Shown in pieces: positions 23,179 through 28,634 of a DNA stretch of 64,000 nt. Position 1 is the first letter of the stretch. Each line of letters starts with the position of its first letter. This stretch comes from an alpha proteobacterium BAL199 (GTDB lineage: Bacteria; Pseudomonadota; Alphaproteobacteria; Thalassobaculales; Thalassobaculaceae), in NCBI GenBank assembly GCA_000171835.1, contig ABHC01000010.1, forward strand, positions 124,001-188,000. The letters run 5' to 3'. The notes beneath the pieces are model-generated. The model was not told the origin of the DNA. It saw nothing but the letters and a program-made list of their open reading frames with translations, and searched no databases. The translations under genes and the position numbers were made by a program.

Positions 23179-23610
23179 ATGCCTTGCATAATCCTGCTGC
23201 TCCAAACTCAACATTCCCGCCTGTTTGAAGCCGCTCAGACATTGACACACGCCGCCGGTGCCGGGAGCGAGACTTGGCCCGGCGACCTCTACGCGTTCCG
23301 CCACTTGCTCATCCGCCATGACCGAATGGAGCGCGATGTGTTCCAGCGTCTTGACGTGTCGACAGACGACGGCCTGAGCCGAGTCTTTGATGACGTGCTA
23401 GCGTCGCAACCCGGACTGGACGCGAGCGCGGTCGCCGCAGCGGCACGACGAATGTCCCGGATCATCGAAGTCCATGCCGATGCCCAGGAAACCGATCTCT
23501 TCCCAGACCTGATCGAAAGCTACCGGGATTCGCTGCGCCACCAGTTGGGAGACCACTACGCGCGGATCCCGGCCGACCAGATCGAATTGGGCGAGCCTGC
23601 AGGAGCATAG
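23179..23610 (+). CDS. hemerythrin-like protein, tandem copy 1
   Basis: 143 residues forming a predicted four-helix bundle. Candidate metal ligands fit a hemerythrin/HHE spacing: His12, His47-x3-Glu51 (RHDRMERDVFQ), His99-x4-Glu104 followed by LFPDL, and His126. The LFP after the third pair is typical of HHE proteins. It may sense or bind O2, iron or NO. The downstream gene at 23745 is a clear paralog, and both are preceded by the same 14-base leader GACAGGAGACTTGC, here at 23164-23177, which includes the ribosome-binding site. Confidence 0.75.
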   Translation: MPCIILLLQTQHSRLFEAAQTLTHAAGAGSETWPGDLYAFRHLLIRHDRMERDVFQRLDVSTDDGLSRVFDDVLASQPGLDASAVAAAARRMSRIIEVHADAQETDLFPDLIESYRDSLRHQLGDHYARIPADQIELGEPAGA

Positions 23611-23744
23611 CCGACCGATGCGGTGACCAACGTTTACCGGTTGGTATATCTTGCACAGCCCCCATATGGACTATTCATGGCCGCGTCACCGCGCCGCGCT
23701 CGGCAGCGTCGGGGGTTGCATGCCCCCCGACAGGAGACTTGCTC

Positions 23745-24179
23745 ATGCCGTGCGTCATTCTGCTTTTGCAGACCCAGCACACCCATCTGCTCGAAACCGC
23801 GCAAACCCTGGTCTACACCGCCGCCTCCGAAGCGGATGGCCAAGGCTTGAAAGCCTTCCGCGACCTTCTGGTGAGGCACGACCGGATGGAGCGCAATGTC
23901 TTCCAACGTCTCGGCGCACCGGCAACCGCTCGTGGTCTGGCCTATGAATTCGATCGAGCGCTGGCGACGCAGGCAGGCTATGACGGCATCGCCGTGGCGG
24001 AAGCGGCCCGGCAGATCGGGCAAACCATCGAGGACCATGCCAACGCCCAGGAGGGTGAGTTGTTTCCCGATCTGATCGATCGTCACGATGAGTCGATCCG
24101 GCACAAGCTAGGCGATTACTACGCTCGTATCCCGGTCGATAGCGCCGGATTGGCGATGACAACACCTGCCGCAGCCTGA
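23745..24179 (+). CDS. hemerythrin-like protein, tandem copy 2
   Basis: 144 residues, strongly similar to the preceding gene (shared MPC-I/V-ILLLQTQH start and LGD-YARIP near the end). Candidate ligands are His12, His45-x3-Glu49, and His98-x4-Glu103 with LFPDL. His126 of copy 1 is replaced by Tyr, so one possible ligand differs between the copies. The ATG at 23745 follows CAGGAGA at 23731-23737, in a leader identical over 14 bases to that of copy 1. It is probably a recent tandem duplication that has begun to diverge. Confidence 0.75.
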   Translation: MPCVILLLQTQHTHLLETAQTLVYTAASEADGQGLKAFRDLLVRHDRMERNVFQRLGAPATARGLAYEFDRALATQAGYDGIAVAEAARQIGQTIEDHANAQEGELFPDLIDRHDESIRHKLGDYYARIPVDSAGLAMTTPAAA

Positions 24180-24256: not shown

Positions 24257-25570
24257 TTACTCCGCCGCGACCTGTGCCACTCCGGCATCCAGCGCCTGGG
24301 ACAGGTCGGCCAGGATGTCGTCGATGTTCTCGATCCCGACCGACAGCCGGACATAGCCATCCGACACGCCCGTGGCGATCTGGTCCTCGGGCGACAACTG
24401 ACTGTGGGTGGTGGTCGCCGGATGGATCGCCAGCGACCGGGCGTCGCCAATGTTGGCGACGTGGTAGAACAGCTTCAGGCGGTCGATGAACGCCCGGCCG
24501 GCATCCTTACCGCCCTTGATCTCGAACCCGACCAGCCCGCCGTAGCCGCCTTTCAGGTAGGTGTCGGCGCGACGCCGTGCCTCGCCGTCCTGCAGCCCCG
24601 GGAAGATCACCCGTTCGACCGACGGATGGTCCTTCAGGAAGTCCGAGACCTTGGCCGCGTTCTCGCAATGCGCCCGCATCCGCAATGCCAGGGTCTCAAG
24701 CCCCTGGATGGTCTGGAAGGCGTTGAACGGGCTTTGCGCCGAACCCAAGTCACGCAGCAGCGTGGTGCGCGCCTTGATGATGTAGGCGATCGAGCCCAGC
24801 GGCTTGACCGCCTCGGTCCACACCGCCCCGTGGTAGCTCGGGTCCGGCGTGTTCAGGGCCGGCTGGCGCTCCTTGAACTGGTCCCACGGGAAATTGCCGC
24901 CATCGACGATCAGCCCACCGATCGAGGTGCCATGGCCGCCGATGTATTTGGTGGTTGAGTACACGATGACCGCCGCCCCATGATCGAACGGGCGGCACAG
25001 CAGCGGTGCCGCGGTGTTGTCGATAATCAGCGGAATGCCGAAGCCGCGGCCGAGATCCGCCACTTCCTTGATCGGAAACACCTGCAGCTTCGGATTCGGC
25101 AGGGTCTCGGCATAATACGCACGGGTGCGCTTGTCGGTGGCCCGCGCGAAGTTTTCCGGATCGGACGGATCGACGAACCGGACCTCGATTCCCTGGTCCT
25201 TCAGGGTGTTGGCGAACAGGTTCCAGGTCCCGCCGTACAGGTCGGTTGAACTGACGATGTTGTCGCCGATCTTGGCCAGGTTCTGCACCGCAAACGCGCT
25301 GGCCGCCTGGCCCGAGGCCACGGCAAGCGCCCCCACCCCGCCTTCGATCGCCGCGATGCGTTGCTCCAACACGTCGCAGGTCGGGTTCATGATGCGGGTG
25401 TAGATGTTGCCGAGTTCCTTCAGGGCGAACAGATTGGCGGCGTGCTCGGTATCGCGGAACTGGTAGGACGTGGTCTGGTAGATCGGCACGGCCACCGCCC
25501 CGGTGGCGGGATCAGCGCGGTAGCCGGCGTGCAGAGCCAGGGTCTCGGGATGCTTGGATTGGGTAGACAT
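24257..25570 (-). CDS. metY: O-acetylhomoserine aminocarboxypropyltransferase (sulfhydrylase)
   Basis: 437 residues from the ATG at 25570 ([21 protein letters not shown]). It is a PLP-dependent Cys/Met-metabolism enzyme making homocysteine from O-acetylhomoserine and sulfide. The Schiff-base Lys is in [25 protein letters not shown] near the N-terminus and the ~430-residue length distinguish MetY from the shorter cystathionine enzymes. Control is by a SAM-II riboswitch and hairpin upstream (25733-25790 and 25701-25722), consistent with methionine biosynthesis repressed by SAM. Confidence 0.94.
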
Positions 25571-25700
25571 CGGTCGCTCCGTTTTAGCGGCCGCTGCTCG
25601 TCCCGGGCACAGCCCGGACGGGCAGCGTGGTTGAAGGACCAAACGCAGCCGCCGCGCGGACGGACCGGACCCCTTGAGGCGGTGGGCGGGCAAACAAAAA

Positions 25701-25722
25701 CCCGCCACAAGCCTGCAGCGGG
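25701..25722 (-). terminator. rho-independent terminator in metY leader
   Basis: On the minus strand a CCCGC/GCGGG stem with a 12-base loop is followed directly by TTTTTG. It lies just downstream of the SAM-II aptamer and 130 bases upstream of the metY start. A terminator in this position is the likely expression platform of the riboswitch. Confidence 0.75.
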
Positions 25723-25732
25723 TCCGAACCGA

Positions 25733-25790
25733 CCGCCACTTTAGCTGCATTTGTAACGCGCCCGCAAGCTGGAGGCTCAAATCGGCGCTG
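25733..25790 (-). promoter_or_regulatory. SAM-II riboswitch upstream of metY
   Basis: Read on the minus strand, the leader has a P1 stem GCGCC (25788-25784) pairing with GGCGC (25762-25758). The conserved loop GATTTGAGCC and CTTGC, then the downstream segment ACAAATGC-GCTAAA, match the SAM-II (metA) aptamer consensus of alphaproteobacteria. A pseudoknot between loop GCC and the 3' GGC is possible. SAM-II elements switch off Met-biosynthesis genes when SAM is bound. The rest of the 356-base gap to the divergent gene (25791-25926) shows no gene and should hold the two promoters. Confidence 0.88.
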
Positions 25791-25926
25791 TCCGGCGAGA
25801 AAACACCGACGGCCGATTGCTGTCAAGAGACGCCTCGGAGGCAGCGAGTGTCGAATTCCGCGGGGACCGTCGACCCGAAGTTCCGTAAACATCGAGAACA
25901 TTCATCGTTTTGCTAGGCCCGCCCCT

Positions 25927-27084
25927 GTGCACAAGCCCGACACCACAAATGGCACGGCTCCACCGTTCGCCGCCGTCACGAGCGAGGACGACACAGTGCT
26001 TGTCCGTTGGGCCGACGGCGCCGAGAGCCTGTTCCACTGCATCTGGCTGCGCGATCATTGTCCCAGCGGTCTGCACCCTTCGACCCGTGAACGGCTGTGG
26101 GACTGGGGAACGATCGACCCCGGCATCCGGGCGAATTCAACGTGCCTGAATGCTTCAGATGAACTGGAGATCTCCTGGACCGACGGTCACGTCAGCCGGT
26201 TTGCATCCGATTACCTCCACCGACGTCGCTACGATGACGAGGCACGCCGCGACCGACTGCCGCCGTTGGACCTGTGGTCGTCCGACAGCATCCGCCGACG
26301 CCTGCCCGAAGCCGACTACCACGCGGTGATGTCGGACGATGCCAGCCTGCTCGACTACCACCTCACGGTCCGCAACACGGGCTTCGTCATCATGCGGAAT
26401 GTCCCGATCCGCGATTGGGTCTGTGAAGAGGTGGCGCGGCGCACCGCGTTCACGCGCGAGACCAATTTCGGCCGGAACTTCGAGGTCATATCGCGACCGA
26501 ACCCGAACAATCAGGCCTACACCCACGACGCCCTGCTGGCTCACACTGATCTCGCTAACCGGGAGATGCCACCCGGCGTGCAATTCCTGCATTGTCTGGA
26601 GTTCGGCGCGACAGGCGGCGAAAGCCTGCTGGTTGACGGCTTTCACGCCGCCGAGCAACTGCGCGCCGTCGATCCACAGGCCTGGGAGGTGCTGACCCGC
26701 GTCGGGCTGCCGTTCCGGTTCCACGACGCCGACTGCGACGTCCGTTGGAAGGGCACACCGATCGCGCTTGATGCCGACGGCCGCTACCATGAGGTTCGCT
26801 ACAATCCCGGCCTTGGAGCGGCACTTGACGTCCCGGCAACCCAAGTGAAGCAGGTCTATCGGGCCCTGCACGCCTTTGCCGCTCGGCTGAAGGATCCGGC
26901 CAATGTTCTCCAGTTCAAGCTGCAGGCCGGTGACATGATGGTGTTCAACAACCGCCGCGTCCTGCACGGACGAGCCGCCTTTGACCCGAATACGGGCCCC
27001 CGCAAGTTGCAGGGTTGCTATGTCGATCTGGATGAGTGGCTGTCGCGCATCCGCGTCCTGACCGGGCAGCACCATCAGGACTGA
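25927..27084 (+). CDS. gamma-butyrobetaine hydroxylase-like 2OG dioxygenase
   Basis: 385 residues. The N-terminal DUF971 domain (residues ~20-100, with the Zn-type motif WLRDHCPS and later Cys) precedes a TauD-like catalytic domain. The Fe(II) ligands are the His and Asp of HTDLAN near residue 210 and the distal His in NNRRVLHGR near 345, where the Arg would bind 2-oxoglutarate. This two-domain order is that of gamma-butyrobetaine/trimethyllysine hydroxylases, which make L-carnitine. It is followed 35 bases later by choline sulfatase, suggesting a shared quaternary-amine role. The start is annotated at the GTG at 25927. Confidence 0.88.
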   Translation: MHKPDTTNGTAPPFAAVTSEDDTVLVRWADGAESLFHCIWLRDHCPSGLHPSTRERLWDWGTIDPGIRANSTCLNASDELEISWTDGHVSRFASDYLHRRRYDDEARRDRLPPLDLWSSDSIRRRLPEADYHAVMSDDASLLDYHLTVRNTGFVIMRNVPIRDWVCEEVARRTAFTRETNFGRNFEVISRPNPNNQAYTHDALLAHTDLANREMPPGVQFLHCLEFGATGGESLLVDGFHAAEQLRAVDPQAWEVLTRVGLPFRFHDADCDVRWKGTPIALDADGRYHEVRYNPGLGAALDVPATQVKQVYRALHAFAARLKDPANVLQFKLQAGDMMVFNNRRVLHGRAAFDPNTGPRKLQGCYVDLDEWLSRIRVLTGQHHQD

Positions 27085-27119
27085 CGATCGAATCCACACA
27101 AGTAGAATGGACCGTGACC

Positions 27120-28634
27120 ATGAGCCGCCCGAACATCCTGATCCTGATGGTCGATCAGTTGAACGGCACGTTGTTCCCGGACGGACCGGCGGATTTCCTG
27201 CACGCGCCGAACTTGAGGGAGTTGGCGCGGCGCTCGACCCGGTTCGCCAATGCCTACACCGCGAGCCCGCTGTGCGCGCCGGGGCGCGCGTCGTTCATGA
27301 GCGGGCAGTTGCCGTCGCGCACCAGGGTCTATGACAACGCGGCCGAGTTCACGTCTGACGTTCCCACCTACGCCCACCATCTGCGCCGGGCCGGCTACCA
27401 GACCTGCCTGTCCGGCAAGATGCACTTCGTCGGCCCGGACCAACTGCACGGCTTCGAGGAACGGTTGACGACCGACATCTACCCGGCGGATTTCGGCTGG
27501 ACCCCGGACTACCGCAAGCCCGGCGAGCGGATCGACTGGTGGTACCATAACCTCGGCTCGGTCACCGGCGCCGGCACTGCTGAGATTTCCAACCAGATGG
27601 AGTACGATGACGAGGTCGCCTATCACGCCGAACGCAAGCTGTACGACCTGGCGCGCGGTAACGACGACCGGCCGTGGTGCCTGACCGTCAGCTTCACCCA
27701 TCCGCATGACCCCTATGTGGCTCGGCGTCGCTTCTGGGACCTGTACGAGAGCTGCGCGGAACTGGAACCGACCGTCGGCGCCACTCCATTCGACCGGCAG
27801 GACCCCCATTCGCAGCGCCTGCAACTCGCCAGTGACTATCAAGCCTACGACATCACCGCCGAAGATATCCGACGGTCGCGGCGCGCCTATTTCGCAAACA
27901 TCTCCTACCTGGACGAGAAGATTGGCAGCCTGCTGGATGTTGTGGAGCGCTGCGGGGTGCGCGACGACACCATCGTGGTGTTCGTATCCGACCACGGCGA
28001 CATGCTCGGCGAGCGTGGCCTGTGGTTCAAGATGAGCTTCTTCGAGGGCTCGGCACGGGTGCCGCTAATGATTGCCGCACCCACAATGCCGGCGGGACTG
28101 GTTGCCGCCCCGGTTTCGACGCTCGACGTGGCCCCGACCCTGGCCGGGCTGGCCGGCATCGATCTGGCGGAGGTGATGCCCTGGACCGACGGCAAGGACC
28201 TGGGTCCCCTGTCAAACGGTGGCCTGCGACCGGGGACGGTTCTGATGGAGTATGCGGCCGAGGGCTCCTATGCACCGCTGGTGTCGATCCGCGAGGGTCG
28301 CTGGAAGTTCATTCACTGTGAGCTCGACCCGCCGCAGTTGTTCAACCTGGACGACGACCCGCACGAGCTCAACAACCTCGCCGGCACATCAAGCCACGCC
28401 GCAACGACCGCGGCGTTCGTAGCCCAGCTCCGCCAGCATTGGGATCTTGCCCGGTTCGACGCCGACGTACGGCAGAGCCAGGCGCGGCGCCGGATAGTCT
28501 ATGAGGCCTTGCGCAACGGCGCCTACTTCCCCTGGGACCACCAACCGCTGCAGCGCGCATCGGAGCGCTATATGCGTAACCATATGGACCTGAACGTGCT
28601 TGAGGACAGGCAACGGTTTCCAAGAGGTCGTTGA
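27120..28634 (+). CDS. betC: choline sulfatase
   Basis: 504 residues from the ATG at 27120 (MSRPNILILMVDQLNG). It is a type-I sulfatase: Cys52-x-Pro-x-Arg56 in LCAPGRASFMSGQ is the formylglycine signature. The metal-binding Asp residues are in MVDQ and VSDHGDMLG. The extended C-terminal tail with WDHQPLQ...RYMRNHMDLNVLE is characteristic of BetC. It releases choline and sulfate from choline-O-sulfate. It lies immediately after the GBBH-like gene with no terminator between. A separate anaerobic or FGE-type maturase is not in the window. Confidence 0.93.
   Translation: MSRPNILILMVDQLNGTLFPDGPADFLHAPNLRELARRSTRFANAYTASPLCAPGRASFMSGQLPSRTRVYDNAAEFTSDVPTYAHHLRRAGYQTCLSGKMHFVGPDQLHGFEERLTTDIYPADFGWTPDYRKPGERIDWWYHNLGSVTGAGTAEISNQMEYDDEVAYHAERKLYDLARGNDDRPWCLTVSFTHPHDPYVARRRFWDLYESCAELEPTVGATPFDRQDPHSQRLQLASDYQAYDITAEDIRRSRRAYFANISYLDEKIGSLLDVVERCGVRDDTIVVFVSDHGDMLGERGLWFKMSFFEGSARVPLMIAAPTMPAGLVAAPVSTLDVAPTLAGLAGIDLAEVMPWTDGKDLGPLSNGGLRPGTVLMEYAAEGSYAPLVSIREGRWKFIHCELDPPQLFNLDDDPHELNNLAGTSSHAATTAAFVAQLRQHWDLARFDADVRQSQARRRIVYEALRNGAYFPWDHQPLQRASERYMRNHMDLNVLEDRQRFPRGR

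Follow-up and report, generated by a model that had tools for sequence, protein, structure and literature searches.

A SAM-II riboswitch leader of metY with a possible second expression platform beyond its terminator

We have analysed a window of 64,000 nucleotides (nt) from a Thalassobaculum-like genome, in which a riboswitch leader of the S-adenosylmethionine (SAM) class SAM-II precedes metY. Both the leader and the gene lie on the minus strand, and all coordinates given here are positions in the window. We consider it an even bet that the one SAM-II aptamer of this leader serves two successive expression platforms, the first a terminator and the second a distal switch at the ribosome site. 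Reading toward metY, the elements are a TTGACA box, the aptamer, a hairpin with a T-run, a strand that we call 'anti', a further hairpin, the Shine-Dalgarno (SD) strand and the ATG. The complementarity of the anti strand to both the aptamer and the SD strand is well supported by the sequence comparisons below. This arrangement suggests that metY may be controlled twice by a single sensor.

The aptamer and a strand antisense to it

By the covariance model RF00521 (SAM_alpha) the leader element is classed as a SAM-II riboswitch, with SAM its presumed ligand. cmscan places it at 25720-25798 (minus strand) with 39.9 bits (gathering cut-off 36, E 1.6e-5), the only gathering-level match in the whole window. 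This bears out a sequence-only reading of the same DNA, which had placed such an aptamer before metY and proposed a scan with this model; that reading did not state the minus strand and overlooked the anti strand near the ribosome site. The gene, at 24257-25570 (minus strand, ATG at 25570), is metY by TIGR01326 (613 bits, cut-off 495; PF01053, 406.9 bits) and encodes an O-acetylhomoserine aminocarboxypropyltransferase 94% identical to MetY of Thalassobaculum fulvum. Within the aptamer, GATTTGA was located at 25783-25777 (minus strand) and the aptamer 3' strand, CAAATGCAGCTAAAG, at 25739-25753 (minus strand). The P1 hairpin can form, as seen in the cmscan alignment. By inspection, and following what we take to be the SAM-II pairing scheme, so can the P2 H-type pseudoknot, in which CCAGCTTGC (25772-25764) and GCTAAAGTGG make eight pairs with bulges.

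The anti strand (25640-25665, minus strand) contains a conserved core, GGCTGCGTTTG, at 25650-25640, which is antisense to the aptamer 3' strand: it can make ten standard pairs with it or, when G-U wobbles are counted, pair at all 11 positions. This core was at first taken to be SAM-V-like, an idea dropped once it proved to be antisense to the aptamer. A SAM-V or second SAM-II element in the leader was likewise rejected, as neither RF01826 (SAM-V) nor a second copy of RF00521 is matched there up to E 10.

For comparison we collected 104 loci with a MetY match of at least 60%. A pattern search found the SAM-II motif in 37 of their leaders, which left 33 after removal of four duplicates: 24 from the family (nine genera), two others (L009 and L047) with the same leader pattern, and seven outside leaders that do not have it. 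The set of 26 leaders used below consists of the 24 family leaders together with L009 and L047. RF00521 is matched in all three genomes of the genus and in 30 of 36 genomes of the family at E <=0.001 (21 of the same 36 at E <=1e-5). About ten of the 24 family leaders score under the Rfam cut-off, so that their assignment to SAM-II depends on weaker evidence and position.

An anti strand lies between the terminator and the start codon in all 24 family leaders, with its core broken in one, and the core starts 41-97 bases upstream of the start codon. In 25 of the 26 leaders the best downstream partner of the aptamer 3' strand, beyond the terminator, overlaps this one conserved core, the exception being L106. 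The core, GGCTGC(A/G)TTTG, is the reverse complement of aptamer CAAATGCAGC if G-U wobble is allowed; five genera and L009 carry variants, such as GGCGGCAT and AGCGGCAT, that pair differently or less fully. The pairing of anti with aptamer is equalled by no more than 10 of 200 shuffles in 16 of the 26 leaders and by at least 80 of 200 in all seven outside leaders. With a fixed window of the same size, no more than 10 of 100 shuffles are as good in 16 of the 24 family metY leaders; this level is reached at none of the family's other SAM-II sites, 26 of 27 of which could be parsed (lowest value 16). Among the SAM-II sites tested, the anti strand is by this measure restricted to metY leaders.

The two strands are also matched leader by leader. 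In a test of own against swapped pairings, with row and column effects removed and 20,000 permutations, own aptamer/anti pairs exceeded swapped ones to a degree found in 0 permutations for the 26 leaders, in nine for the 16 distinct strands and in one for the 24 family leaders (without L009, L047 and hand placement); for the seven outside leaders the figure was 16,806. When a single leader was kept per genus, in three choices of which the last took the least favourable leaders, the counts were 11, 16 and 206 with the anti region marked and 175, 390 and 1,115 with it unmarked. The core helix has standard pairs in 81.3% of cells (16 distinct rows), compared with 31-48% when the strands are slid. 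In three of its pairs both partners vary, a number equalled by 66 of 500 shuffles; 6 of 500 shuffles attain its covariation score. One position is seen as A-U, U-A and G-C and is unpaired in six of the 16 rows.

Terminator and ribosome site

The sequence-only reading had described a clear hairpin with a T-run about 130 bases before the start codon. The hairpin is present at 25692-25725 (minus strand), with the ATG 127 bases past its last listed base (25698). Folded alone it reaches -17.8 kcal/mol (z -3.4), and none of 200 shuffles was as stable; a hairpin with a T-run also occurs at the same place in L004 and L006, which represent both other genomes of the genus. A pattern scan over 901 bases found this one site against an average of 0.7 in shuffles and therefore carries no significance by itself; taken whole, the 116-base stretch has unremarkable stability (z 0.36). 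As a transcriptional platform requires, a U-run follows a stable hairpin upstream of the gene. With an aptamer and then a hairpin resembling an intrinsic terminator ahead of metY, a transcriptional platform is likely, and it predicts SAM-dependent termination. This part of the earlier reading stands. Its view of the platform as a useful variant fails, because in alpha- and beta-Proteobacteria, according to the parts of published surveys that were consulted, terminators are the platform that SAM-II usually has.

The aptamer tail, GTGGCGG (25733-25739, minus strand), recurs with seven identical letters in the 3' arm of the terminator (25708-25702). It may act as the antiterminator strand, yet the local fold is weak (z -0.68). 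A loose terminator scanner of our own design, run on the leaders without a shuffled control, flagged a terminator-like hairpin in 20 of the 26, of which we judged 15 convincing. For L104 it flagged a different hairpin, and a terminator is visible in the fold of that leader. Six leaders from four genera were not flagged (L097, L100, L102, L103, L106 and L127).

Next to the start codon, the SD strand GCTAAAACGGAG (25577-25588, minus strand) resembles the aptamer strand GCTAAAG. By sequence the SD strand is often a copy of the aptamer strand: in 12 of the 26 leaders GCTAAA occurs no more than 30 bases from the start, compared with none of 67 metY leaders that lack SAM-II (whose starts were inferred). 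Pairing between anti and SD is possible in all 26 leaders, with 5-18 pairs, and it shares 3-14 bases with the anti/aptamer pairing. A single strand able either to cover the SD or to pair with the aptamer, as a translational platform would require, is therefore available in every one of them. The SD and anti strands are matched within their own leaders in the one-per-genus sets as well (0, 207 and 162 of 20,000 permutations). Between anti strand and ribosome site we read by eye a further hairpin (25599-25620, minus strand), which is absent from L004 and L006; L091 and L093 have other hairpins there.

In folds of partial transcripts ending just past the anti strand, the probability of aptamer:anti pairing exceeds one half in 24 of the 26 leaders, and the aptamer strand is paired downstream at 0.64, compared with 0.25 for shuffled sequence. 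In transcripts ending just before the ATG, 22 of the 26 leaders still exceed one half.

A possible relay and its competitors

The two-platform explanation, which we prefer, can be carried further to a relay by strand imitation, to which we give a probability of about 0.4. In the relay the 3' arm of the terminator and the SD strand would both imitate the aptamer 3' strand and tail, and each imitation would compete with the aptamer for one strand complementary to both; a single binding event would thereby set transcription as well as translation of metY. Where a genus has a weak terminator or has lost it, the translational layer would persist. In the preferred explanation, on the transcriptional platform, an aptamer tail left free in the absence of SAM would pair with the terminator's 5' arm, whereas SAM binding would hold the tail in the P2 pseudoknot, so that the terminator would form and transcription would stop. 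The translational platform would act on RNA that has been read through, in which the anti strand is transcribed before the SD. Without SAM, anti would pair with the free aptamer 3' strand, leaving the ribosome site open and locking the aptamer out. With a SAM-bound aptamer, anti would be left to pair with the SD strand, and the ribosome site would be closed. Our inferences are that SAM binds, that transcription terminates, that there is an antiterminator and that the strands exchange in this order, along with any effect on translation. The six leaders without a flagged terminator keep the anti strand (with a broken core in L106), which fits a separate translational role.

Several observations weigh against the two-platform explanation. 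With the aptamer withheld in equilibrium folds, SD exposure changes by a mean of only +0.03 over the 26 leaders; the change exceeds +0.1 in four of them, and is -0.07 in the window and +0.04 in the outside leaders. A second step would therefore have to be kinetic, and we put the second platform forward as a kinetic proposal rather than a demonstrated switch; we have not filed the leader as a translational riboswitch because this one test of SD exposure gave no such response. In full-length folds aptamer:anti pairing exceeds one half in only 10 of the 26 leaders, and anti:SD pairing has a value of 0.00 for the window. Antiterminator matching across leaders is not specific (14,768 of 20,000 permutations, n=17). 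The leader L006 does not pass the shuffle test, with 117 of 200 shuffles as good, the anti core of L106 is broken, one core position is an A x G mismatch in nine leaders, and the own aptamer strand takes the top rank for its own downstream region in just 3 of the 26 leaders. Finally, the relatedness of the leaders is countered by the one-leader-per-genus sets alone.

The SD result would be expected if the leader were a plain transcriptional SAM-II riboswitch, in which only the terminator responds to SAM and the structure at the ribosome site is unregulated, giving a constant translation rate. That terminators are the usual platform of the class also speaks for this explanation, which we think rather improbable; it leaves unexplained a conserved strand that is antisense to the aptamer and matched within its own leader, as well as the absence of that strand from the other SAM-II sites of the family. 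A second alternative confines the role of anti to the aptamer. Here anti would capture the aptamer strand after read-through, blocking later SAM binding or altering RNA stability, and would have no part at the ribosome site. The pairing in 24 of the 26 leaders before the SD exists agrees with this, as does the full-length fold of the window, where aptamer:anti stands at 0.87 against the 0.00 of anti:SD. The matching of SD with anti is, however, as specific as that of aptamer with anti, and the aptamer strand is often copied in the SD strand; we think this explanation distinctly unlikely. A third alternative, which we think very improbable, takes the element near the ribosome site for another SAM aptamer, either of the SAM-V kind or a SAM-II that has decayed, on the pattern of known tandem leaders. 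Besides the lack of a second match in the leader, RF01826 is not matched up to E 10 in the genome itself (104 of 148 candidates scored), where RF00521 occurs at three places, one under the cut-off; the core instead reads as the antisense of the aptamer.

If the two-platform model is correct, a compact pseudoknot aptamer can serve two platforms through strand copying, with no need of a second aptamer, and the sequence past a riboswitch terminator merits routine inspection. Because natural leaders of both kinds, having a clear terminator or lacking one, exist in the family, each layer is separately measurable. If that model is false, the strongly conserved anti-aptamer strand of metY leaders still needs an explanation.

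Surrounding features, other SAM-II sites and known systems

TTGACA at 25821-25826 (minus strand) is a likely -35 box. TTGAC recurs 31-36 bases 5' of the extracted leader start in 24 of the 26 leaders; it is lacking in L047 and in L096, whose leader begins at a contig end. Judged from this box, transcription is likely to start close to the aptamer. The divergent neighbours on the plus strand (25927-28634) are a gamma-butyrobetaine-dioxygenase-like gene, which at 328 bits falls short of its cut-off (414.75), and a choline-sulfatase gene, which at 886 bits passes its own. At 23179-24179 lie two adjoining small open reading frames that resemble each other, the second weakly hemerythrin-like (20.8 bits, cut-off 25.3).

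Class-wide, SAM-II was found in 49 of 134 genomes at E <=3e-8. Of 30 loci read, 28 were parsed, and 17 of these were flagged for a terminator-like hairpin by the same loose scanner, again without shuffled control. Six had a downstream length suitable for the anti strand test and none of them reached <=5 of 100 shuffles (lowest 9); the start-codon picker often took a start that was spuriously early, which makes this result a poor guide to the spread of the strand.

Other arrangements were seen among relatives. L115, L116, L117, L118 and L119 have paired SAM-II matches in one leader, 115-143 bases from start to start, the first followed by a hairpin with T-run and the second near the start codon; in L117-L119 the downstream gene is about 32% identical to MetY. 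Four more (L120, L123, L124 and L125) show by eye a sub-threshold second aptamer-like stretch after the first SAM-II and hairpin. Before other genes, L003, L005, L007, L133 and L134 share a hairpin directly after GCTAAAGCG, CCACGGG...CCCGTGG or CCGTGG followed by GCCC or GCTC and without a clear T-run, which is possibly another type of platform. The sole SAM-V match over the cut-off in the 36 family genomes (L135:1501-1570, 42.3 bits) lies at a different place.

We found no report of a SAM-II anti-aptamer strand with an SD copy in the open-access literature searched, and the comparisons that follow refer to the parts of each source that were consulted. Many SAM-II representatives with putative terminators were described by Corbino 2005 (PMC1273637), and for Sinorhizobium meliloti metZ SAM-induced termination was predicted and an RNA of about 100 nt seen (Scheuer 2022, PMC9373788). 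These SAM-II leaders with an intrinsic terminator (RF00521) share with ours the aptamer, the terminator before the gene, a methionine gene and a promoter box just upstream; only here is there an extra strand before the start, antisense to the aptamer and able to pair with the SD too. The 'translation at a distance' of S. meliloti metA (PMC9373788) likewise has a terminator downstream of a SAM-II aptamer and a role in translation at some distance, but its SD lies inside the riboswitch and its terminator is not predicted to respond to SAM, whereas here the SD is a separate downstream strand. In the c-di-GMP-I riboswitch Bc1 (PMC11218506) one aptamer with a long platform is reported to give dual regulation of transcription and translation; it differs in class and ligand, has two terminators, and is described as incoherent and unresponsive to c-di-GMP in vitro. 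Tandem SAM-II leaders have already been published, and these SAM-II/SAM-V and SAM-II/SAM-II bi-mechanism leaders (PMC9481103) also place a terminator first and ribosome-site control second on one mRNA; they do so with two aptamers, whereas the leader in the window has one detectable aptamer.
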